Source of the DNA: Thermoplasmata archaeon
Lineage (GTDB): Archaea; Thermoplasmatota; Thermoplasmata; Thermoplasmatales; Thermoplasmataceae
Assembly: GCA_021811635.1 (NCBI GenBank)
Contig: JAJZNS010000029.1
Span: 1 to 14,143, forward strand
Direction: 5' to 3'
DNA: 14,143 nt
Shown here: piece by piece, positions 3,925 through 13,898 of the stretch
Numbering within the stretch: the stretch's first letter is position 1
Layout: the number at the start of each line of letters is the position of its first letter
Notes under the pieces: generated by a model
Database searches by the model: none
Told to the model about the DNA's origin: nothing
Seen by the model: only the letters and a program-made list of their open reading frames with translations
Position numbers and translations under genes: made by a program

Positions 3925-4716
3925 ATGATCATAGCAGTTTCATCCGTTTCAGATCCTGCAAGCAGGCGAATGGGGGAATATCTTGTTGAGAATTACGGGC
4001 TGGACAGAATCGACATCTCAACATTCAGGAAGGCCAACCTGACGCTCAAGATAATCGACGCTTCACACCTGTATTCAGACACAGAGGAGATCATCCGCAG
4101 TGCGAAGACTTCGGGGCCACCGGAAGGAATAGTCTTCCTTTCAAAACACAGCTCCAGCGCAAAAATCAGGTCCATGACAGTGCATCCCGTCGGAAATTTC
4201 TCTGAAGCGTTACTTGGAGGCCTTGAAGGCAGGCTTTCACGTGCATTCCCAGACAGGATGACCGATACATTAAGGAATCTCAAGGCCAGGAATACGGTAA
4301 AGGAGATGGAGGTGACGTTTGAAGCCACCCACCATGGACCATTCACCCAGACACCGGCATTCTATCTTGAGATAGGGACAACCGAGGAGGAGTGGAATAA
4401 TGAGGCCATCCTCGACTGCGTCCTGTCCTCGCTGGTCGAAGCAAAGGGGAACACATACCCGAACTTCGTAGGCATCGGTGGAGGCCATTATGCGCCAAAA
4501 TTCACGCAATATGTAATGTCTGAGAAAGTGAACATCGGCCACATAGTCCCGAAGTACCAGAGGGATCACGTAAATGATCAGACAATCAGGCAGGCGGTGG
4601 AAATGACTCCAAACTGCAGAGGGCTCATCATGGACTTCAAGGGATGCAACTCTGAGATGAGAAACACTGCCAGGGCAGTTGCAGCCGATATGGGCCTGGA
4701 GCTGATTGAAATTTAA
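3925..4716 (+). CDS. dtdA: D-aminoacyl-tRNA deacylase, archaeal/plant type
   Basis: This is a protein of 263 residues, the usual length for archaeal DtdA (GEK1 family). The enzyme hydrolyses D-aminoacyl-tRNAs such as D-Tyr-tRNA so that D-amino acids are not trapped on tRNA or used by the ribosome. The family landmarks are present in order: an N-terminal alpha/beta part, FLSKHSS (71-77), EATHHGP (133-139) with its conserved histidine pair, GIGGGHYAPKFT (183-194) and GHIVPKY (205-211). The histidines in these motifs are the expected zinc and catalytic ligands. It starts 5 nt after the previous stop, with no clear Shine-Dalgarno sequence, which suggests coupling to the upstream gene. It is followed by an AT-rich gap (4717-4881) in which a new promoter begins. 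The identification is firm. Its position directly upstream of an operon with possible D-glutamate chemistry is noted, but that operon has its own promoter. Confidence 0.95.
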   Translation: MIIAVSSVSDPASRRMGEYLVENYGLDRIDISTFRKANLTLKIIDASHLYSDTEEIIRSAKTSGPPEGIVFLSKHSSSAKIRSMTVHPVGNFSEALLGGLEGRLSRAFPDRMTDTLRNLKARNTVKEMEVTFEATHHGPFTQTPAFYLEIGTTEEEWNNEAILDCVLSSLVEAKGNTYPNFVGIGGGHYAPKFTQYVMSEKVNIGHIVPKYQRDHVNDQTIRQAVEMTPNCRGLIMDFKGCNSEMRNTARAVAADMGLELIEI

Positions 4717-4881: not shown

Positions 4882-5850
4882 ATGGAGATAGTGAGTGAGG
4901 AGGAAGAACCTCCGGATACGACTCCTTTTTTTAGGGCCAGCAATATTGAAAAATCCCTCAAACTCAAGAAATTGTACATCAAGTTTGAAGGGGCGAGCAT
5001 AACCGGGACTCAGAAAGACAGGATCTCAAGGTTGCATGCAAGAAGGGCTAAAGCGCTGGGATATGACACCCTGTCGCTGGCTTCCTGCGGTAACTATGGA
5101 GCTTCAGTCTCGTATTATGCCAGGGTGCAAGGGCTTGGGAGCGTAGTGGCGGTACCGAGTGGATATTCGGGGGAGAGAAACGCGGAGATTGAACAGTATG
5201 GCGGAACTCTCCTGCGTGAGGACGGGAAGTATGAAAATCTTGTAGACATGATGCGGGACCTTGGCAACGATAACTGCTGGTACGACTGCAACCCAGGTTC
5301 GCAGAACTCATTCATCGACTTCCTTGGGTACGAGAACATAGCGTTTGAAATCATTTCCCAGCTGGGGCATGCACCCAACTTCGTAGCCGTCCCCGTGGGC
5401 AATGGAACCACGATGACCGGCATATATTCCGGATTCAAGAAAGCCTACAGGATGGGGCAGATCGATCATATTCCAAGACTGATCGCCTCCTCTACCGACG
5501 GCGGGAACGCGATTGTGCACTCGTGGAAGATGAAGAGCAGGAAGATAGTTGACCTTGATCCGCTGCGCCTAAAGGAAAGCAGGGCGAACGAGCCGCTGGT
5601 ATCGTATCATTCAATCGACGGACAGAAGGCGCTCAATGCCATTTACGAGAGCCGGGGATTCGCCGGATACGTTTCCGACGAGGAGATGATCCGCACCTCA
5701 TCCTTCATTGAAAGGCTGGAAAAGGTGCAGGCTCTGCCCGCCTCTTCTTCCGCACTTTCCGTTGCAGTCAGGGTGATGCGAAAATTCGTGGATTATCCAG
5801 AGTGTGTGGTTGTTCTGACAGGAAGAGGAAAGCCGTGGACAACGCAGTAA
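4882..5850 (+). CDS. PLP-dependent fold-type II enzyme, threonine-synthase-like
   Basis: This gene encodes 322 residues. The PLP-binding lysine is Lys45 in GTQKDR, corresponding to the SFKDR motif of threonine synthase and cysteate synthase. SCGNYGAS (68-75) is the substrate loop normally written SSGNTGAS, and PVGNGTTMTG (171-180) is the glycine-rich loop that holds the PLP phosphate. VVVLTGRGKPW near the end is the typical last strand. It is shorter than most threonine synthases and lacks their N-terminal zinc-finger or extra domain; the acidic start (EIVSEEEEPPDTTP) leads directly into the fold. Fold-type II enzymes catalyse beta- or gamma-replacement, elimination or racemisation of amino acids; the actual substrate is unknown. 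Its end overlaps the next gene by 16 nt, so it is the first gene of a three-gene operon with a DgcN-like and a MurL-like protein. It may be an amino-acid beta-replacement or racemase enzyme rather than ThrC. Confidence 0.88.
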   Translation: MEIVSEEEEPPDTTPFFRASNIEKSLKLKKLYIKFEGASITGTQKDRISRLHARRAKALGYDTLSLASCGNYGASVSYYARVQGLGSVVAVPSGYSGERNAEIEQYGGTLLREDGKYENLVDMMRDLGNDNCWYDCNPGSQNSFIDFLGYENIAFEIISQLGHAPNFVAVPVGNGTTMTGIYSGFKKAYRMGQIDHIPRLIASSTDGGNAIVHSWKMKSRKIVDLDPLRLKESRANEPLVSYHSIDGQKALNAIYESRGFAGYVSDEEMIRTSSFIERLEKVQALPASSSALSVAVRVMRKFVDYPECVVVLTGRGKPWTTQ

Positions 5851-6881
5851 TTCTGAGCGAAGGAGTTTTCGGCACAACTTACGGGAAAACCGCAAACGGG
5901 TTAATCAGGTATGGTACAAGATTCCGGCCCGTGGCAGTGATAGATTCTACCAAAGCCGGAATGGATGCGGGAGAGGTGCTTGAAGGCAGGCGAAAAGGGA
6001 TTCCCATAGTCGCCACTCTGCAGGACGCGATGGCACATCATCCCTCGACCCTGGTGGTTGGAATTGCCAGTGACGGCGGTTTTCTGCCGAAGGAGTACAG
6101 GCCAGCGATCAGGGAAGGGCTGGAACATGGCTTGAACGTTGTATGCGGGCTTCATGAATTTCTCTCAGACGACCCTGAATTTTCAGAGTTGGCAAGGAAA
6201 CACAACTGCACCATAACCGATGTCAGGAAAATGTTCAGGGACATGAAGATCCCTTACACCGGTAAGATCAGGGAGGTAAAATCATTCAAGATTGCGGTGC
6301 TTGGCACTGACAGCGCCGTAGGAAAACGCACAACCGCAGTGTACCTGAACAGATCAATGCAGGAGAACAACAGGACAAGTGTTATGATCGGGACGGGTCA
6401 GACTGCCTGGATGCAGGGTTTCCCCTATACTGTAGTGATAGATGCCATGATCAACGATTTCATCTCAGGGAATCTGGAGGATACGGTTTACAGGGCTTGG
6501 AAAGACCTACACCCGGACTACATGTTCCTCGAGGGCCAGGGATCGATCCTTCATCCTGCGTATCCCGGCAGCTTTGAGATAATAGCCGCCTGCAGGCCGG
6601 ATGCCATCATACTGCAGCACTCGCCATCCCGGGTTTACTATGACGGTTTTCCCGACTTCAGGATTGAGAGCATTGAAAAGTACATCAAGATCCTGCAGCT
6701 TGTCTCCGGGAAACCGGTAATTGCAGTGTCACTGAATCTTGAAAACATTCCGCAGGATAGAAAGGAGCAGGAGATAACGGCCATGGCAAAGAGGATTGGG
6801 ATACCAGTGTTTGATCCGCTTTCCGATCTGAGAGAGATAACGAAATACATAGAGACAATCTCGCCTGAAATCAATGTCTGA
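5835..6881 (+). CDS. DUF1611 family protein with P-loop, D-glutamate N-acetyltransferase (DgcN)-like
   Basis: This gene encodes 348 residues from the GTG at 5835, chosen because GGAAGAGG lies just upstream and the family fold begins at once (DNAVILSEGVFGTTYGKTA); a GTG at 5802 would add an unlikely extension. The N-terminal half is a Rossmann-like domain (VAVIDSTKAG, VVGIASDGGFLP, GLNVVCGLHEFL). The C-terminal half has a P-loop, GTDSAVGKRTT (157-167), then GTGQTAWMQG and the family hallmark LEGQGSILHPAYPG. DUF1611 members include DgcN of marine bacteria, which acetylates D-glutamate in a D-glutamate catabolic route, usually beside an enolase-superfamily racemase (DgcA). No DgcA is present here; the neighbours are a PLP enzyme and a MurL-like protein. 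It overlaps the upstream gene by 16 nt and the downstream gene by 8 nt (ATGTCTGA). Family membership is firm; acyl acceptor and donor are inferred from the family only. Confidence 0.9.
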   Translation: MDNAVILSEGVFGTTYGKTANGLIRYGTRFRPVAVIDSTKAGMDAGEVLEGRRKGIPIVATLQDAMAHHPSTLVVGIASDGGFLPKEYRPAIREGLEHGLNVVCGLHEFLSDDPEFSELARKHNCTITDVRKMFRDMKIPYTGKIREVKSFKIAVLGTDSAVGKRTTAVYLNRSMQENNRTSVMIGTGQTAWMQGFPYTVVIDAMINDFISGNLEDTVYRAWKDLHPDYMFLEGQGSILHPAYPGSFEIIAACRPDAIILQHSPSRVYYDGFPDFRIESIEKYIKILQLVSGKPVIAVSLNLENIPQDRKEQEITAMAKRIGIPVFDPLSDLREITKYIETISPEINV

Positions 6882-8286
6882 TTATCTTTCACGAATTGCC
6901 TGCTTCGAAACAGCAACTATTCACCCGGAAGAAGTGACCGGGAAAAGGATTGTTTCCACCGTGGATCTTGACGGGGAAAAGTTCAGGCTCATATTTTCCT
7001 ACAGCCATGACGTTCCAGAGATGGACAGGAACGTAGCCGGTCTAATCTCGCTCTTTCCCATTGTCAATTTCGGCCTTTTCACAAGGCGCATAAGGGCGGA
7101 ATTCCCGATGGAGAAGGCGGACCTGCAGTTCCTCACGAAGATGCTCGCGATCAATAATACGGAGGTGTTCGTAAACAAGATATGCAGGAGGCGGTATGAA
7201 TTCTACCGGAGGGAATACCTGCCGGAGGAAAGCGAGATCACCCAGCCAAACGCCATTGGAAGCAACATCCTTGAAGCCGAAGGGGAAGCAAGCTTCCCCA
7301 GGAAATATACGGGGAAAAGGACCGGCGTGCTGCTTTCCGGCGGCAAGGAGAGCCTGACCACCTTCGGCATTCTCACGGAGGCAGGAGAGGATCCTGACGC
7401 TTTCTTCTACAATGAATCAGGATCGCACTGGTTCCCTGCCGTACCAAGCTACAGGCATCTGGACGGAAGCGGCCATGCGTTCAAGGTGTGGACAAACACC
7501 GACAGGTTCTACAGGTGGGTTCTCCGCAGGATGAAGGTGCTTGACCAGGTAGCGGTGGCAAGAGTCGCAGACACATATCCGGTTCAGCTTTTCATATTTC
7601 CCGTATATCTGATGGCCCTGCTTCCCCTGATGATCGAGAGGAAAATCGGGGCAGTGTATATGGGGAATGAGTTTGACGATACCAGGGAAATGGTACCGTA
7701 CAGGGGGATCAGGCATTATTACGGCATATACGACCAGACTGCCGAATTCGAGAGGGAGTTCAACGCGTACCTTGGACATAAGGGCATAGGCATCAGGCTG
7801 ATGTCCGGCGTATATCCAATCAGCGCTTCCAAGGTCGAGGAAATACTGGTCAGGAGATACCCGGACCTCTTCAGGCTGCAGAGGTCATGCCACAGCTCAA
7901 GGATTGTACACGGAAAGGTGATCCCATGCGGCAGATGCTCAAAGTGCATCGGCGTAATTTCACTTATCCTTGCAGCAGGCGGAAATCCTGAAGAAATCAA
8001 TTATACCCATGAGGCTGTAGAAAATGCCGCGAAATCACTGCTTTCCGACAGGATAAGGCTTGACAGGGACGAGGTCGCCTATCTTCTCTCAGTGCTGCAG
8101 AACAGGCCAGTTGGAAGCGCCAGGCACATTGAAGGCGTTCACATTATTCCCGGTGAAAAGTTACCTTTTGAGCGCATCGATCCACCTGTCAGGGAAAAGA
8201 TCATTGCAATAGTCAATGAATACGCGAAGGGAAAATATGAACTCAGGGGGGATCAGTGGGTTAATGTTCAGAAGAATTCGGCCTGA
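6874..8286 (+). CDS. PP-loop ATPase with QueC-like cysteine cluster, resembling MurL glutamyl epimerase
   Basis: This gene encodes 470 residues. After an N-terminal domain of about 145 residues comes a PP-loop, LLSGGKESL (153-161), the ATP-pyrophosphatase motif that makes an adenylated intermediate. Near residues 339-358 there are four cysteines, one followed by CGRCSKC (C339, C352, C355, C358), the zinc-binding pattern seen at the C-terminus of QueC-type enzymes. A further domain of about 110 residues follows. The overall plan resembles MurL, which uses ATP to invert the terminal L-Glu of UDP-MurNAc-L-Ala-L-Glu; this resemblance is judged from memory without alignment. The archaea suggested by this window have no murein, so that substrate is not expected. 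Translation is coupled to the DUF1611 gene by an 8-nt overlap. Its 3' end overlaps convergent tsr3 by 19 nt. An alternative is a QueC-like nucleoside or amide-forming enzyme. Confidence 0.82.
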   Translation: MSDYLSRIACFETATIHPEEVTGKRIVSTVDLDGEKFRLIFSYSHDVPEMDRNVAGLISLFPIVNFGLFTRRIRAEFPMEKADLQFLTKMLAINNTEVFVNKICRRRYEFYRREYLPEESEITQPNAIGSNILEAEGEASFPRKYTGKRTGVLLSGGKESLTTFGILTEAGEDPDAFFYNESGSHWFPAVPSYRHLDGSGHAFKVWTNTDRFYRWVLRRMKVLDQVAVARVADTYPVQLFIFPVYLMALLPLMIERKIGAVYMGNEFDDTREMVPYRGIRHYYGIYDQTAEFEREFNAYLGHKGIGIRLMSGVYPISASKVEEILVRRYPDLFRLQRSCHSSRIVHGKVIPCGRCSKCIGVISLILAAGGNPEEINYTHEAVENAAKSLLSDRIRLDRDEVAYLLSVLQNRPVGSARHIEGVHIIPGEKLPFERIDPPVREKIIAIVNEYAKGKYELRGDQWVNVQKNSA

Positions 8287-8777
8287 ACCGAGATAATCTC
8301 CTCGTTGCTGCCGCAGGTGGAATACGCCTTCAGCAATTCCAGGTTTGTCTCGTAAAAAGTGTGTGCCCATGGGAACTTCGACAGCACGGAATCGGCAAGA
8401 GAATTTTCGCCCATGATATAGAGGGCAGACGCGATCGCCTCAACCGAAGAGAGCAGCCCGGGCTTGCCAAAGTTTACGGGATTTACGGGAAGAATAAGCG
8501 GCAATTTTCTCTGGTTCCCGGATTTTTGGGAATATCTGTCCTCAATGCGTTTCCATGAGGTCTCGATAACGCACAAACCGTACTTTTCCGCAATAACTTT
8601 GTCCCTGGCGGTCAGGTATTTATCTGAAAATGGCCATAGGAGAACCTTTCCGCGTATCATTTTTGCATCTATCCTGTATGCCATCCCGAACCTGGAAAGC
8701 TTCCTCATCGTTGACTTCCGCGGATCATCCATTCGCTCGTCAACGTAGGATATTCTGATCAAGTGCTTTCTTCCCAT
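8268..8777 (-). CDS. tsr3: Tsr3, small-subunit rRNA aminocarboxypropyltransferase
   Basis: This gene encodes 169 residues, the compact archaeal length (the yeast protein is about 310). Tsr3 transfers the 3-amino-3-carboxypropyl group of S-adenosylmethionine to a uridine or pseudouridine in helix 31 of small-subunit rRNA, a late step of ribosome maturation. The N-terminal RLI-like part is seen as MDDPRKSTMRKLSRFG (16-31). Then come WPFSDKYLTARD (48-59), CVIETSW (69-75) in place of the usual DCSW, and the strongly conserved NPVNFGKPGLLSSVEAIASA (99-118). The closing motif is FPWAHTFYETNLELLKAYS (135-153), the counterpart of FKWGHSFLKLN. The family assignment is firm. The ATG at 8777 gives the expected start. 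The gene is convergent with and overlaps the PP-loop gene by 19 nt, and is divergent from the small membrane protein at 8921. Confidence 0.94.
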   Translation of the reverse strand: MGRKHLIRISYVDERMDDPRKSTMRKLSRFGMAYRIDAKMIRGKVLLWPFSDKYLTARDKVIAEKYGLCVIETSWKRIEDRYSQKSGNQRKLPLILPVNPVNFGKPGLLSSVEAIASALYIMGENSLADSVLSKFPWAHTFYETNLELLKAYSTCGSNEEIISVQAEFF

Positions 8778-8920: not shown

Positions 8921-9133
8921 ATGGCAACCGGGTTGAGTGCAAAGCAGACCAATATTCTGCTGGCAGTGCTGGGATTACTTTTGCTTGTGATAGGCATATA
9001 CATTCTTGCCGGAACTATTGCCATCACCAACCAGACCTCGTTCAATGGGAGTCTGATCATGATCATCATCGGCGCGATACTCATCGCGATTGTTTACGTC
9101 TACAACACTTTCTTCAAGCCTCAGAAAGTGTAG
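8921..9133 (+). CDS. Two-helix small membrane protein, unknown function
   Basis: This gene encodes 70 residues with a short polar N-terminus (ATGLSAKQTN), a first transmembrane helix (about 11-33, very Leu/Ile rich), a short polar loop with the sequon NQT and a second NGS, a second helix (about 43-61) and a basic tail ending in KPQKV. The charge distribution predicts both ends inside and the loop outside. No family is recognised; small two-helix proteins of this type are common in archaeal membranes. A strong TATA box lies about 30 nt upstream, supporting expression. Its last 13 nt overlap the convergent ATPase gene of the ABC importer. Confidence 0.75.
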   Translation: MATGLSAKQTNILLAVLGLLLLVIGIYILAGTIAITNQTSFNGSLIMIIIGAILIAIVYVYNTFFKPQKV

Positions 9134-9858
9134 GTGAATCTCCTACCCTCCGGCGAATCATAGATCCTGAATGGCAGTCCAAAGGCAGTTTTCAGGTTTT
9201 CCTCCGTCATGATCTCATCCTTTGGTCCGAAGCCCACGGTTCTACCACCCCTCATCAGGCAGACCCGGTCAGAATACCTGTGCAGCGCACTGATGTCGTG
9301 CAGCACAAGCACTATGGACTTTCCCTTTTCCCTGAGATCTTCTATTACGGAAAAAATAATCCTCTCCCTGTCCGGATCAAGGTAGGTGCCAGGCTCATCC
9401 ATAAGAAGAATGCCCGCATCCTGCAAAATCGATGCAGCGAAGAGCACCATCCTCTTCTCTCCTCCGCTCAGGGTGTTATAGTCACGGTATCTCAAAGCCG
9501 ATATGCTGCAAACATCAAGAATTTCTTCCACACGATCTTCATTTTGCGGATTGGAATAAACTGAAGTCCTGAGTATATCGTTGACTGAGAGGGCAAATGG
9601 CATTGGAATCTCCTGCCCCATAAGCGAGATATGCCTGGCGATCTGGAGCCTCGGGAATCTCCGCATGTCTGTCCCATTCAACCTGACCACCCCGGATTCC
9701 GGGGCGCTTATGCCGCAGAGCAATCTGAGGAAGGTGGATTTTCCGGAACCGTTTGGCCCGCCGATTCCCACAACTTCTCCCTCATTGACTGTAAAATTTT
9801 CCACAAAGAGGGAAAATCTCCCCCTGTTAAGTCTCAGGTTGGAAACTTCAAGTCGCAT
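9121..9858 (-). CDS. ABC importer ATPase, iron-siderophore/heme/cobalamin type
   Basis: This is a 245-residue cytoplasmic ATPase of the FecE/FepC/BtuD group. It shows Walker A GPNGSGKST (34-42), the Q-loop glutamine at 82 (MGQEIPMPF), the ABC signature LSGGE (130-134), Walker B ILLMDEP (150-156), with the D-loop in GTYLDP, and the switch histidine at 187 (LVLHDIS). The ATG at 9858 is preceded by a strong Shine-Dalgarno-like GGGGGGAGGAT. It is the last gene of the importer operon; its start overlaps the end of the permease gene by 11 nt, so translation is probably coupled. Two copies should dimerise on the permease pair to drive uptake. The substrate cannot be fixed from the ATPase; Fe(III) chelates or corrinoids are the usual ligands of this subgroup. 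Confidence 0.93.
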   Translation of the reverse strand: MRLEVSNLRLNRGRFSLFVENFTVNEGEVVGIGGPNGSGKSTFLRLLCGISAPESGVVRLNGTDMRRFPRLQIARHISLMGQEIPMPFALSVNDILRTSVYSNPQNEDRVEEILDVCSISALRYRDYNTLSGGEKRMVLFAASILQDAGILLMDEPGTYLDPDRERIIFSVIEDLREKGKSIVLVLHDISALHRYSDRVCLMRGGRTVGFGPKDEIMTEENLKTAFGLPFRIYDSPEGRRFTYTF

Positions 9859-10909
9859 ATCCTCCCCCCGCCATCCTGGAAAGCAGATATAGGAAGAAAG
9901 GAGCCCCTATAACTCCAGTTACAATCCCGATGGGCAGTACCTCCTGGGTTATTGCAATGTTGGCTATATCCTCGCAAAGGATGAGAAATATCCCTCCTAT
10001 GACCATGGCAGCCGGTATCGTCGCCCTGTTTGAACCGCCATAAATGATCCTTGAAATATGCGGTATGACAAGGCCAACAAACCCTATAAGGCCCGATATG
10101 GAAACGCAGATTGAAGTGGAGAGTGTGACCAGAAGGATAAGCATGAGCTTGGTGCTTTCCACATTTATTCCAACCGATGAGGCGTACTCCTCCCCGAGCT
10201 GCAGGGAATCAAGCTCCTTCCAGTAAAGGGCAACAATGAAGATCGTGAGCCAGTTTATTGCAAAGGCTATAATCAGTTCAGTCCAGGTGATCTGTGCCAG
10301 CGATCCCATGAGCCACATCCAGACCATATTCTGCAGCTTCAGGTTCGTAAATATCAGGTATGCGACAAATGAGGATATGAACAGGGAAACAGCTATGCCG
10401 GTGAGAAGCAGGTACGTAAGCGGGACCTTGCCTTTCCTGAATGCGCCAAGGTATACAACCATGACAGTGGCCACTGAAAACGTGAATGCTATGATCTGAA
10501 GGGAATAGATCCCAAGAATCGTGATCCCAAAATCCAGAACAACGACCGCACCAAGAGCCGCACCGCTGGAAATTCCAATTATGTAGGGCTCTGTGATGGG
10601 ATTCCTGAACACGCTCTGTATGACAGCACCGCCCACAGCCAGCGTGGATCCAATCACCAGGGCACCAAGTATCTCTGGTTCTCGCAGTTCAACAACGATT
10701 ACCCAGTATGCCCCGGATCTGGGATAGGCATTGCTGAAAGGGAAGATCTGCTCTTCCACAATTCTGAGAACGTCCTGGAATGGGATGCTCACCTGCCCGA
10801 GGAAAAGGGAAAATATGGTGACCAGCACCAGTGCACCGACAGCCGACATCCACTTTAACGAGGACATCAGCTGTGAGGACGTTCCAAAGCCGGACTTCAG
10901 GAGATCCAT
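9848..10909 (-). CDS. FecCD-family permease of iron/cobalamin-type ABC importer
   Basis: This gene encodes 353 residues with about ten membrane helices in the BtuC/FecCD arrangement. Family landmarks are VELREPEILGALVIGSTLAV (REP replaces the usual RLPR), GGAVIQSVFRNPITEPYIIG, then ISSGAALGA, and near the C-terminus SISGLIGFVGLVIPHISR with a following coupling-loop region and TGVIGAPFFLYLL. FecCD proteins form a homodimer that passes the substrate released by the binding protein. The N-terminal 20 residues are cytoplasmic. The ATG at 10909 follows directly on the stop of the binding-protein gene (TGA then ATG, no gap), and its 3' end overlaps the ATPase by 11 nt, so the three genes make one operon. 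There is only one permease gene, consistent with a homodimer. Confidence 0.93.
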   Translation of the reverse strand: MDLLKSGFGTSSQLMSSLKWMSAVGALVLVTIFSLFLGQVSIPFQDVLRIVEEQIFPFSNAYPRSGAYWVIVVELREPEILGALVIGSTLAVGGAVIQSVFRNPITEPYIIGISSGAALGAVVVLDFGITILGIYSLQIIAFTFSVATVMVVYLGAFRKGKVPLTYLLLTGIAVSLFISSFVAYLIFTNLKLQNMVWMWLMGSLAQITWTELIIAFAINWLTIFIVALYWKELDSLQLGEEYASSVGINVESTKLMLILLVTLSTSICVSISGLIGFVGLVIPHISRIIYGGSNRATIPAAMVIGGIFLILCEDIANIAITQEVLPIGIVTGVIGAPFFLYLLSRMAGGGYAT

Positions 10910-11911
10910 TCAGTTCCATCCGTATGACGGCGGATAGGGGAGATTTATCGGGAAGACCGGGAAACTGTTCATGATGAGCGGATTGCTTGTTATCTCTATC
11001 AGCCATGCCACTGCATAAACTGCCCTGAAATCAGGTTCATCAAAGAAGCTGTCGTTGAAGATTGCATAAACATGATTTGAATAGTACGCGCTTGTAGTGT
11101 TGAAAGGGGTCACATTGACTGCAGAATATGGCACGTACTGGTCAAGCAGAATAATGTCCGGGGATGAGTTTACTATTATCTCCGGGTTAATGGTGTAATA
11201 TCCGTTCTGTGTAGCAATATTCTTGAGATGCGCTATATTGAAGTAATTCTGGAAAAAGGTGTTGTTTCCGGCGGTCCAGTATCCGCCATAGTTGTCAAGG
11301 TAATAGAACACCGTCTGTTCTTCGGCAGGAGTGATCGAGGCTGTGCTGTTGCTGAGATAGGAAAGTGAATTCTGCATCCAGTTCACTACCAGTGTGGCGT
11401 TGTGGTAACATCCCGTGAGGTTCCCCAGCATAAGGGTTTCATTCTCAATCTGTGAGAAGCTGTTGGGGTTGTCCAGAAGGAAAGGAATGTGCAGCGTGTT
11501 GTTTATGTACACGCCATAAGTGGGCATGGTCGCGCCATAACCGAGAACCACCTGCGGCTGCAGGCTTACCAGCTCCTCATAGTTGACGGAATATGAGTTT
11601 CCCACGTTTGGCAGAGTTTCATTTGGCGGATACGCATCAAATTCATTGCCTCCCACCATGTATTTGTATGCCCCGATTGCGTAAAGAGTGGCGGTTGCGG
11701 ACGGATCCAGGCTGACAATCCTTTCCACCGGTCCCGGAAAATAAAACGTCCTACCGGCGGAATCAGTGACCTTTATCACCTTCAGGTTTGGAGCCGGTGA
11801 ATTAACGGTACTGGATCCTGCCGCATTTCCAGCGTTCGAGACAGCGTAAAAAGAAAGGCCCGATGCAACCAGCACCAGGGCCACTACTATTGCGATCATT
11901 CTGTTTTCCAT
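10910..11911 (-). CDS. Membrane-anchored substrate-binding protein of the iron/cobalamin-type importer
   Basis: This gene encodes 333 residues. A hydrophobic N-terminal segment (about 5-27) without a lipobox cysteine is followed by a Ser/Thr/Asn/Pro linker, so the protein is probably anchored by this helix and faces outward. The rest is the FecB/BtuF (Peripl_BP_2) fold: VKVTDSAGR-like entry (IKVTDSAGRTFYFPGPVERI), VSLDPSATATLYAIGA, the block NYEELVSLQPQVVLGYG and the late SSPDIILLDQYVP. It carries about ten N-glycosylation sequons (for example NETL, NLTG, NATL, NSTA, NVTP), typical of archaeal surface proteins. AGGTG 7 nt before the ATG acts as ribosome-binding site. It is first in the operon, the usual order for this importer type. 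The ligand is unknown; an iron-responsive palindrome upstream would favour iron. Confidence in the family is high. Confidence 0.91.
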   Translation of the reverse strand: MENRMIAIVVALVLVASGLSFYAVSNAGNAAGSSTVNSPAPNLKVIKVTDSAGRTFYFPGPVERIVSLDPSATATLYAIGAYKYMVGGNEFDAYPPNETLPNVGNSYSVNYEELVSLQPQVVLGYGATMPTYGVYINNTLHIPFLLDNPNSFSQIENETLMLGNLTGCYHNATLVVNWMQNSLSYLSNSTASITPAEEQTVFYYLDNYGGYWTAGNNTFFQNYFNIAHLKNIATQNGYYTINPEIIVNSSPDIILLDQYVPYSAVNVTPFNTTSAYYSNHVYAIFNDSFFDEPDFRAVYAVAWLIEITSNPLIMNSFPVFPINLPYPPSYGWN

Positions 11912-12400: not shown

Positions 12401-12428
12401 CATATAGTATATGTATAATGTTTATCTA
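12401..12428 (+). promoter_or_regulatory. MFS transporter promoter region
   Basis: The region is AT-rich and includes the palindrome CATATAGTATATG (12401-12413) and a TATA-like TTTATCTA (12421-12428). The second lies 26 nt before the ATG at 12450 and would give a leaderless mRNA. A third box, CTATATATT at about 12379, is 28 nt before the alternative ATG at 12411. The sequence alone does not settle which is used. Confidence 0.4.
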
Positions 12429-12449
12429 AGTATTGATTATTCAATCCTG

Positions 12450-13898
12450 ATGTCTAACAAAGATGGATCGGATCTGCCAGATCTTATGGATTCGATGGAC
12501 AACGCATCTGTAGGCAGGTTCCACTATAAAACGTGGCTGCTTGCGGGTATGGGGTTCTTTACGGATGCGTACGATCTTTTCATTATAGGAACGGTACTGG
12601 CAATAATGCCGCTTGTAGGATGGAGCACGCTGAATACAGCCACTGCCACAGGAAAGTACTACACTGCCCTTGCAGGTTCCACAGCACTCCTCTCCGCGAT
12701 AATTGGTGCAGTTCTTTTCGGAAGGCTTCTGGATATGCTGGGACGAAAGGCGATTTACGGCATTGAACTGGTGCTTCTTGTGATAGGTGCCCTGGGCAGC
12801 GCTTTCCTTACCCCTGTCAACAGTCCTTTCATACTCATAGCATGGAGATTCCTGCTCGGTATAGGTATTGGGGGCGACTATGCCACGAGTTCGACAATAA
12901 TGGCTGAATATTCCAATACCAGGAGCAGGGGAAAACTAGTCGGAATGGTATTCTCCATGCAGTCCCTTGGCCTGGTAGTGGGTCCCGCGATCGCTCTTGG
13001 TCTCATGTACAGCGGGATGTCACTGACCCTTGTATGGCAGCTTTTGCTCGCATTCGGTGCAATCCCGGCCGCGTTTGTAATCTATGGAAGAAGGAAGCTT
13101 CCCGAACCACCTAGATATACGCTCAACGTGAAGGGAAAGACGAAGGAGGCTGCGAAGACCTGGGAGAAGTACACCGGACTGAAGGTTGACGAGAACTCCC
13201 AGATAAAACCATCCAAGGCAAAATGGTCCAAACTGTTCACTGACAGGACGTTCATGCTCACCCTGATCGGTACAGCCGGGACCTGGTTCCTCATGGACTG
13301 GGCTCTCTACGGAAACAGCATAATGTCACAGAACATAGCTGGAGTGCTCATACCGTCAAGCGTCACCGGACTTGCAAAGATCAAGATCTCAACATTCTAC
13401 ACCCTGCTGATTTTTGCACTTGCCGCCTTCCCCGGATACTGGATCGCAACCTTTACGATCGACAGGATTGGAAGGAAGCCGATACAGACGATCGGTTTCC
13501 TGTTCATGGCGGCAACGTTCTTCACGCTCGGCCTGGCGCCGTACATACAGAGCGCCGCATATGCTGTGGAGTTCCTGGTCATATACGGGATGAGTTACTT
13601 CTTCATAGAATTCGGGCCAAACGTGACGACTTTCATCTACCCGCCTGAGGTGTTTCCTACCTCCTTAAGGGGACTGGGAACTGGAGCTTCAGCTGCAGGT
13701 GGGAAGACCGGCGCCTTCATAGGCACATTCCTGGACCTCTTCATAATCGCTGCCTTCGGTTACTCCGGGCTTTTCCTGCTTCTGGCAATGTTTGCCGTGC
13801 TGGGGCTGATCCTCACAGTCGTGCTTCTGCCCGAGCCTAAAGGAATGAACCTTGAGGAGAGTTCAGGCGATAACAGGCTCCGCCAGGAGAACGCATAA
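12450..13898 (+). CDS. MFS transporter, phosphate/sugar:proton symporter-like
   Basis: This gene encodes 482 residues from the ATG at 12450 (MSNKDGSD); an in-frame ATG at 12411 would add 13 residues of unusual composition. It has twelve predicted membrane helices. The first helix carries AGMGFFTDAYDLFIIG, the hallmark of the PHO84-type phosphate symporter family. The loop 2-3 motif GRLLDMLGRK, the helix 4 motif GIGIGGDYATSSTIMAEYSN, followed by RSRGKLVGMVFSMQSLG, and the second-half repeat IDRIGRKPIQ all fit. A soluble central loop (about residues 210-265) is rich in Lys. Related proteins move phosphate, sugars or organic acids with protons; acidophiles carry many paralogues, so the substrate is undecided. 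It stands alone: the upstream 450 bp is empty and a T-rich tract follows the stop. Family confidence is high, substrate confidence low. Confidence 0.92.
   Translation: MSNKDGSDLPDLMDSMDNASVGRFHYKTWLLAGMGFFTDAYDLFIIGTVLAIMPLVGWSTLNTATATGKYYTALAGSTALLSAIIGAVLFGRLLDMLGRKAIYGIELVLLVIGALGSAFLTPVNSPFILIAWRFLLGIGIGGDYATSSTIMAEYSNTRSRGKLVGMVFSMQSLGLVVGPAIALGLMYSGMSLTLVWQLLLAFGAIPAAFVIYGRRKLPEPPRYTLNVKGKTKEAAKTWEKYTGLKVDENSQIKPSKAKWSKLFTDRTFMLTLIGTAGTWFLMDWALYGNSIMSQNIAGVLIPSSVTGLAKIKISTFYTLLIFALAAFPGYWIATFTIDRIGRKPIQTIGFLFMAATFFTLGLAPYIQSAAYAVEFLVIYGMSYFFIEFGPNVTTFIYPPEVFPTSLRGLGTGASAAGGKTGAFIGTFLDLFIIAAFGYSGLFLLLAMFAVLGLILTVVLLPEPKGMNLEESSGDNRLRQENA

Follow-up and report, generated by a model that had tools for sequence, protein, structure and literature searches.

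What does a DUF1611 protein do in an archaeon when its gene lies between those of a pyridoxal phosphate (PLP) enzyme and a PP-loop protein? The question is raised by a stretch of 14,143 nucleotides (nt) from a Thermoplasmata archaeon (assembly GCA_021811635.1, contig JAJZNS010000029.1, forward strand; henceforth referred to as the window), in which the genes for the three proteins, here called PALP, DUF1611 and PPL, overlap one another. We report that this operon is conserved in archaea and some bacteria and that the PP-loop domain of PPL is related to that of MurL, and we tentatively propose a pathway in which an amino acid would be acylated and then inverted. The features of the operon are as follows.

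4882..5850, + strand: PALP, a fold-type II PLP enzyme (PF00291, 160.5 bits; NF004996, 396.3 bits, cut-off 266)
5835..6881, + strand: DUF1611 protein, a DgcN relative with a Rossmann-like N-terminal domain and a P-loop C-terminal domain (PF07755, 191.8 bits; PF17396, 105.5 bits)
6874..8286, + strand: PPL, with an N-terminal domain (residues ~1-140; strand-strand-strand-helix-strand-helix) and a MurL/QueC-like PP-loop domain
C339, C352, C355 and C358 of PPL: four-Cys site in the PP-loop domain
5835..5850, + strand: 16-nt overlap of the PALP and DUF1611 genes, read from the sequence and found in the same form in 17 of 32 loci
6874..6881, + strand: 8-nt overlap of the DUF1611 and PPL genes, read from the sequence

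An earlier reading of the window, made from the sequence only, had proposed a three-gene set with overlaps of 16 and 8 nt, and the open reading frames (ORFs) lie where it had placed them. The stop codon of PALP (5848-5850) falls behind the GTG start of DUF1611 at 5835, and the stop codon of DUF1611 (6879-6881) falls behind the ATG start of PPL at 6874. The ORF listing also reported an earlier GTG for DUF1611, at 5802; the orthologue alignment favours the later start. A TATA-like stretch was seen by eye 50-60 nt 5' of position 4882 (the promoter scanner covers only sigma-70 sites), and a single promoter would serve the three genes.

Conservation of the operon in archaea and bacteria

Among 101 relatives in the order of the window, PPL was found in 77 and DUF1611 in 93; in the window's own family (f1) PPL is present in 57 of 61 genomes. 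We compared 40 PPL neighbourhoods, hand-chosen across genera out of the 77 PPL genomes, and found DUF1611 and PPL on the same strand in all 40, separated by at most 58 nt in 39 of them and by 597 nt in the remaining one (L049). PALP precedes the pair in 32 neighbourhoods, and the other eight all come from families f3 and f4. When the start codons nearest to that of the window are chosen, the 16-nt overlap between PALP and DUF1611 recurs in 17 of these 32 loci. The same three genes are present in an additional locus (L090), where DUF1611 and PPL are adjacent with broken frames. In a further family of the order (f5), DUF1611 is present in 16 of 18 genomes and PPL in none, and 15 of the 18 (one with a partial match) contain a relative of the enolase-type epimerase DgcA scoring above 170 bits, which lies close to DUF1611 in L071, L072 and L080. 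Strict mutual exclusion of PPL and the enolase was considered and ruled out: by hand count, an enolase relative scoring above 190 bits occurs in 25 of the 77 genomes with PPL.

When 292 genomes of the phylum were searched with a profile of 28 PPLs, 57 proved to contain the protein, including 26 that do not belong to the order. The 20 loci that we fetched come from 18 of the latter, and in 16 of these loci PALP, DUF1611 and PPL follow each other in this order on one strand, with a wider gap in L197 and L198. The loci lacking the triple are L200 and L213, each a second copy in a genome that has the triple at the other locus, as well as L209 and L216, the last being a 25% match. Apparent fusions of PALP to DUF1611 in L197 and L201 were dismissed because these long ORFs are out of frame in their upstream part, which has no PALP match. 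In one of the loci with an enolase-type gene near PPL, L208, two further genes were scanned, these being scanned in this locus only: a gene of 450 amino acids matched Peptidase_M14 (21.7 bits, cut-off 21.6) and the GNAT gene beside it matched Acetyltransf_1 (54.3 bits).

With a divergent archaeal PPL as query, we retrieved bacterial proteins at ~40% identity, many of them with a creatininase domain (PF02633) in their precomputed annotation; many bacterial PPL proteins (P0295-P0362) are ~765-840 amino acids long and carry this domain at the C-terminus. Of the five bacterial loci that we fetched, one belongs to the Phycisphaerae genome that also contains L149 and another to a further genome of the L149 phylum, and the other three come from genomes in the phylum of L133 (titled Acidobacteriota). 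In every one of them PALP, DUF1611 and PPL are encoded on the same strand. Pfam identified the creatininase domain in L238, L239 and L240; a tblastn search with a PPL-creatininase protein identified it in L242 and, truncated where the contig ends, in L241. Few of the sampled bacteria are carriers, namely 1 of 31, 3 of 199 and 2 of 294 genomes (G379 being counted in the first and the last). The Phycisphaerae genome G379 holds both a racemase-type (L149) and a PPL-type (L238) DUF1611 locus. Overall, the three families are adjacent in related genomes across the phylum as well as in bacteria: the operon is real and better founded than the sequence-only reading had said, and the interpretation that came with it is partly right.

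The genes that flank the operon include a D-aminoacyl-tRNA deacylase:

3925..4716, + strand: DTD2, upstream of the operon (PF04414, 209.7 bits)

DTD2 occurs in the fetched stretch of 26 of the 28 f1 loci, two of which have it on the far side, and in none of the 12 f3 and f4 loci; its nearness may be plain synteny and does not imply membership of the unit. Downstream, a TSR3-like gene (8268-8777; PF04034) is convergent with the operon, and beyond it lie a set of ATP-binding cassette importer genes (9121-11911, named by eye) and a major facilitator superfamily transporter gene (12411-13898).

The PP-loop protein, MurL and QueC

PPL matches no Pfam or NCBIfam family. In profile comparisons with hhalign, its PP-loop half matched MurL with P 2.6e-10 and QueC with P 2.4e-5 when 188 PPL rows were used, unrelated controls giving 0.37 and 0.43; with 40 PPL rows MurL (9.6e-6) and QueC (3.6e-5) were nearly tied, and only the larger set separated them. 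The 188 rows comprise 40 fetched archaeal proteins, 30 of the 120 relatives first listed and 118 of the 120 listed matches of the divergent archaeal PPL, these last shortened to their first 560 residues. The MurL profile was built from eight sequences, five of them from Xanthomonadaceae (P0172, which contains an internal repeat, was dropped), and the QueC profile from 15 sequences, all from Thermoplasmatota. The motifs GG[KR]xS and CxnCxxCxKC are present in 187 and 188 of the 188 PPLs, respectively, in all eight MurL sequences and in none of the 15 archaeal QueC sequences, and a stretch resembling S.LRPLSEL is found in 49 PPLs, all eight MurL sequences and no QueC sequence. The MurL likeness claimed by the sequence-only reading stands for the PP-loop half and its motifs, and does not extend to the Pfam domains of MurL (see below). 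The order of strands and helices in the N-terminal domain is similar in PPL and in the structural model of MurL, which is poor overall (predicted local distance difference test score, pLDDT, 51.8), and fold searches made with that model carry little weight.

The QueC family PF06508 (cut-off 22 bits) did not match the window PPL at any E up to 10, and it matched 7 of 28 PPL family members, the best with E 0.01. DUF6395 (PF19932) was rejected as a home for PPL, with no match above cut-off in 41 genomes, and a search of plasmids returned no PPL. The named organisms among 120 listed relatives of PPL are Thermoplasmata (Thermoplasma, Picrophilus, Ferroplasma and Cuniculiplasma). We found nothing relevant in the open-licence literature linking MurL with a PP-loop or with QueC, the accessible part of PMC2922099 included, and neither MurL nor DUF1611 is named in the accessible main text of a 2026 survey of the QueC family (PMC13329287). 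Separately, three Pseudonocardia plasmids (L091, L092 and L093) carry a MurL-like gene with 34-36% identity to Xanthomonas MurL; it is convergent with a large gene, annotated with WD40 repeats in two of the three, and no Mur ligase is annotated beside it.

DUF1611 and its varied partners

Both Pfam domains of the window DUF1611 protein score above their cut-offs, and PDB entries 2g0t, 2obn and 7xrj are among its sequence matches. The motifs GLH, GTD, GK, TGQ and EGQ are invariant in 11 aligned rows and common to the annotated DgcN of strain CF6-2. No enolase-type DgcA gene is adjacent to the window DUF1611, whose neighbour is PPL. In a tree of 72 DUF1611 rows, those linked to PPL, from archaea as well as bacteria, cluster together (36 rows, 98/91), and beside them stands a cluster of 24 rows linked to racemases (100/100); the four canonical DgcN rows are placed at a distance, and two haloarchaeal enolase-linked rows are separate from these DgcN rows. 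It thus seems that one inverting enzyme has been exchanged for another, unrelated one as the partner of DUF1611, and the PP-loop enzyme would be a third kind.

A racemase or epimerase gene directly follows DUF1611 in 9 of 15 annotated plasmid regions that we opened (L110, L111, L112, L114, L115, L218, L219, L220 and L223). The partner is DgcA in Pseudoalteromonas CF6-2, Ruegeria, Vibrio pelagius and Sphingobium YC-XJ2, a dipeptide epimerase in Halorussus and Haladaptatus, and a relative of alanine/ornithine racemase in Phaeobacter, V. parahaemolyticus and Aliiroseovarius. When named genomes were scanned with a DUF1611 alignment led by Vibrio, at least 587 loci emerged, and the best 80, which sample one clade and were drawn by similarity to a query with a racemase partner, gave 76 downstream ORFs, mostly with a 4-nt overlap. 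Matches to Ala_racemase_N numbered 74 of the 76, as did those to the ornithine racemase model, for which the single member reported in full reached 369.5, below the cut-off of 480. No convincing third gene common to the DUF1611-racemase pairs was found, the upstream ORFs including one cluster of 29. Two-gene units of DUF1611 and an ornithine/alanine-racemase-like gene (L110-L112, L117-L196) occur in many bacteria, some of them on Vibrio and roseobacter plasmids. Two papers of the open-licence literature that we searched name DUF1611, and nothing relevant in it pairs DUF1611, creatininase, threonine synthase and dipeptide epimerase.

A possible pathway, its rivals and known systems

DgcN is labelled an N-acetyltransferase by NCBI, activated N-acyl amino acids form oxazolones, which racemise easily, and creatininase opens a five-membered ring, a cyclic amide, derived from an N-substituted amino acid. 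According to the accessible parts of the published work, DgcN acts with DgcA to turn D-Glu into L-Glu (PMC10845958, PMC12363236), and MurL inverts an N-acylated glutamyl residue while converting ATP to AMP, adenylation of the alpha-carboxylate being the proposed route (PMC5808125, PMC8788868). Combining what is reported on DgcN and on MurL, we favour, with rather less than full conviction and short of an even chance, a single small-molecule pathway in which DUF1611 N-acylates an amino acid and PPL activates its carboxylate with ATP and inverts it. We infer all of the chemistry of this pathway. By homology with DgcN, DUF1611 would move an acyl group onto the amino group of, most likely, glutamate or a close relative. 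By its relationship to MurL, PPL would then adenylate the alpha-carboxylate of the N-acyl amino acid, and the activated compound, possibly a five-membered oxazolone-type ring, would easily lose its alpha proton, invert and be released by hydrolysis. In bacteria the creatininase domain fused to PPL could open the ring, and closure of an oxazolone followed by such an opening would explain the fusion. An enolase-type epimerase encoded in the same operon probably takes a second substrate, e.g. a dipeptide. In the weakest step, the threonine-synthase-like PALP might supply or consume the amino acid by elimination or replacement. Conservation of the operon, the racemase partners of DUF1611, the place of the PPL-linked DUF1611 group beside the racemase-linked one, the profile match between PPL and MurL, the reaction of MurL and the core motifs of DgcN all support the pathway. 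It is rather doubtful, though conceivable, that it amounts to an undescribed archaeal and bacterial pathway outside cell-wall synthesis, in which DUF1611 primes and the MurL-related PPL drives a one-way, ATP-dependent inversion of an N-acyl amino acid in free form, by way of a cyclic, activated intermediate that the fused creatininase opens in bacteria.

Several results weigh against acylation by DUF1611 followed by inversion by PPL. Among the 20 archaeal loci from outside the order, 5 have an enolase-type gene in the vicinity of PPL, and four of these 5 also have the triple; in bacteria such a gene follows in the same operon in three of the five loci (L238, L239 and L242, two of them scanned with Pfam), L240 having none and the contig of L241 coming to an end. 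Because PPL and the enolase co-occur in these loci and in the 25 PPL genomes counted above, PPL is not a mere substitute for DgcA, as had been supposed from the sequence alone; inversion may fall to the enolase, and PPL may be the enzyme that makes a bond. The window DUF1611 protein scored 165.1 bits against the DgcN equivalog model NF041892, whose cut-off is 480, and is thus no DgcN equivalog. Six of the 15 plasmid regions (L109, L113, L116, L217, L221 and L222) have no annotated racemase directly downstream of DUF1611, in a gene table that is incomplete (L221 has an epimerase two genes upstream). In the additional locus L087, where PALP is present, ~4.2 kb separate DUF1611 and PPL. Finally, the MurL Pfam domains PF26298/PF26299 are on none of 120 listed PPL matches in the precomputed annotation, which does show them on 120 listed MurL matches, and the N-terminal domain of PPL has no sequence match to that of MurL.

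The enolase in the same operon, the chief result against inversion by PPL, leaves room for PPL to be an ATP-dependent former of amide or peptide bonds in the style of QueC or an amidotransferase. The operon would then build a small N-acylated amide, with the enolase or another enzyme setting the stereochemistry and the creatininase domain acting as a hydrolytic or cyclising step. We consider this somewhat unlikely, since the deeper profile comparison prefers MurL, the GG[KR]xS and CxKC motifs are MurL-like and absent from all 15 QueC sequences, and sister DUF1611 genes are paired with racemase-like genes. The same enolase genes in the archaeal loci, together with the conversion of D-Glu to L-Glu by DgcN-DgcA and the weak M14-peptidase match in L208, are consistent with salvage of D-glutamate or D-amino-acid peptides from bacterial walls, in which DUF1611 would acylate the D-amino acid and PPL or the enolase would turn it into the L-form. 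Salvage appears unlikely, however, given that MurL works from L to D only (accessible part of PMC8788868), that the M14 match sits at its cut-off and that the presence of PPL in nearly all f1 genomes suits biosynthesis equally. The nearest solved structure to PPL, over both domains, is QatC, which would fit a PPL whose target for modification is a protein or nucleobase, as it is for Cap9 and supposedly for QatC. This is very improbable: the neighbours of PPL are amino-acid enzymes, and 39 of 41 genomes encode, apart from PPL, a protein that matches QueC strongly (E 5e-55 or better). No qatABCD operon surrounds PPL, the adjoining genes being PALP, DUF1611, DTD2 and the TSR3-like gene.

A narrower pathway, made up of DUF1611 and PPL only, would follow if PALP were simply the threonine synthase of the cell. 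The label PRK06381/NF004996 predicts this activity for PALP, which passes the cut-off well; K45, D46 and R47 are invariant across 32 PALP orthologues, and Lys45 in the motif TGTQKDR is presumably, by motif logic, the lysine that binds PLP. In keeping with such a role, the operon lacks PALP in 8 of the 40 loci of the order, and some genomes (e.g. G001, G016, G017 and G020) have no second PALP match at E 1e-15. In contrast, when we compared 10 PALP paralogues from eight genomes of the same or other families (listed to E 1e-60), at least 8, falling in seven of the genomes, passed another threonine synthase cut-off, and the operon PALP is therefore probably specialised in genomes with such a paralogue. 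As the operon also retains PALP in bacteria and in archaea from outside the order, we regard a plain threonine synthase as improbable.

Should acylation by DUF1611 followed by ATP-driven inversion by PPL prove true, chemistry of the MurL type would extend to archaea, with a counterpart in bacteria that carries a fused creatininase domain. A family with no assigned function, present in 57 of the 61 genomes of the window's family, gains a concrete and testable prediction, and the loci suggest that inverting enzymes of three unrelated kinds have become partners of DUF1611 enzymes.

Among known systems, MurL resembles PPL in its PP-loop domain and in the motifs GG[KR]xS and CxnCxxCxKC, whereas PPL differs in the Pfam domains and N-terminal sequence discussed above and in its neighbours, no Mur ligase (the MurD2-type neighbour) having been found among seven scanned window proteins. 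QueC, QatC and Cap9 have in common with PPL the PP-loop fold and the four-Cys site, and QatC also has an N-terminal extension, but the QueC profile matches PPL more weakly and the partner genes differ. The DgcN-DgcA system of Pseudoalteromonas sp. CF6-2 likewise places a DUF1611 gene with the same core motifs beside an epimerase; DgcA, however, is an enolase, whereas the partners in the window are a PP-loop enzyme and a PLP enzyme, and the window DUF1611 belongs to another clade, below the DgcN cut-off. Closest in the tree are the DUF1611 proteins paired with ornithine/alanine-racemase-like proteins, which are also encoded in an overlapping two-gene unit and which differ in that their partner is a racemase-like protein of PLP fold-type III.

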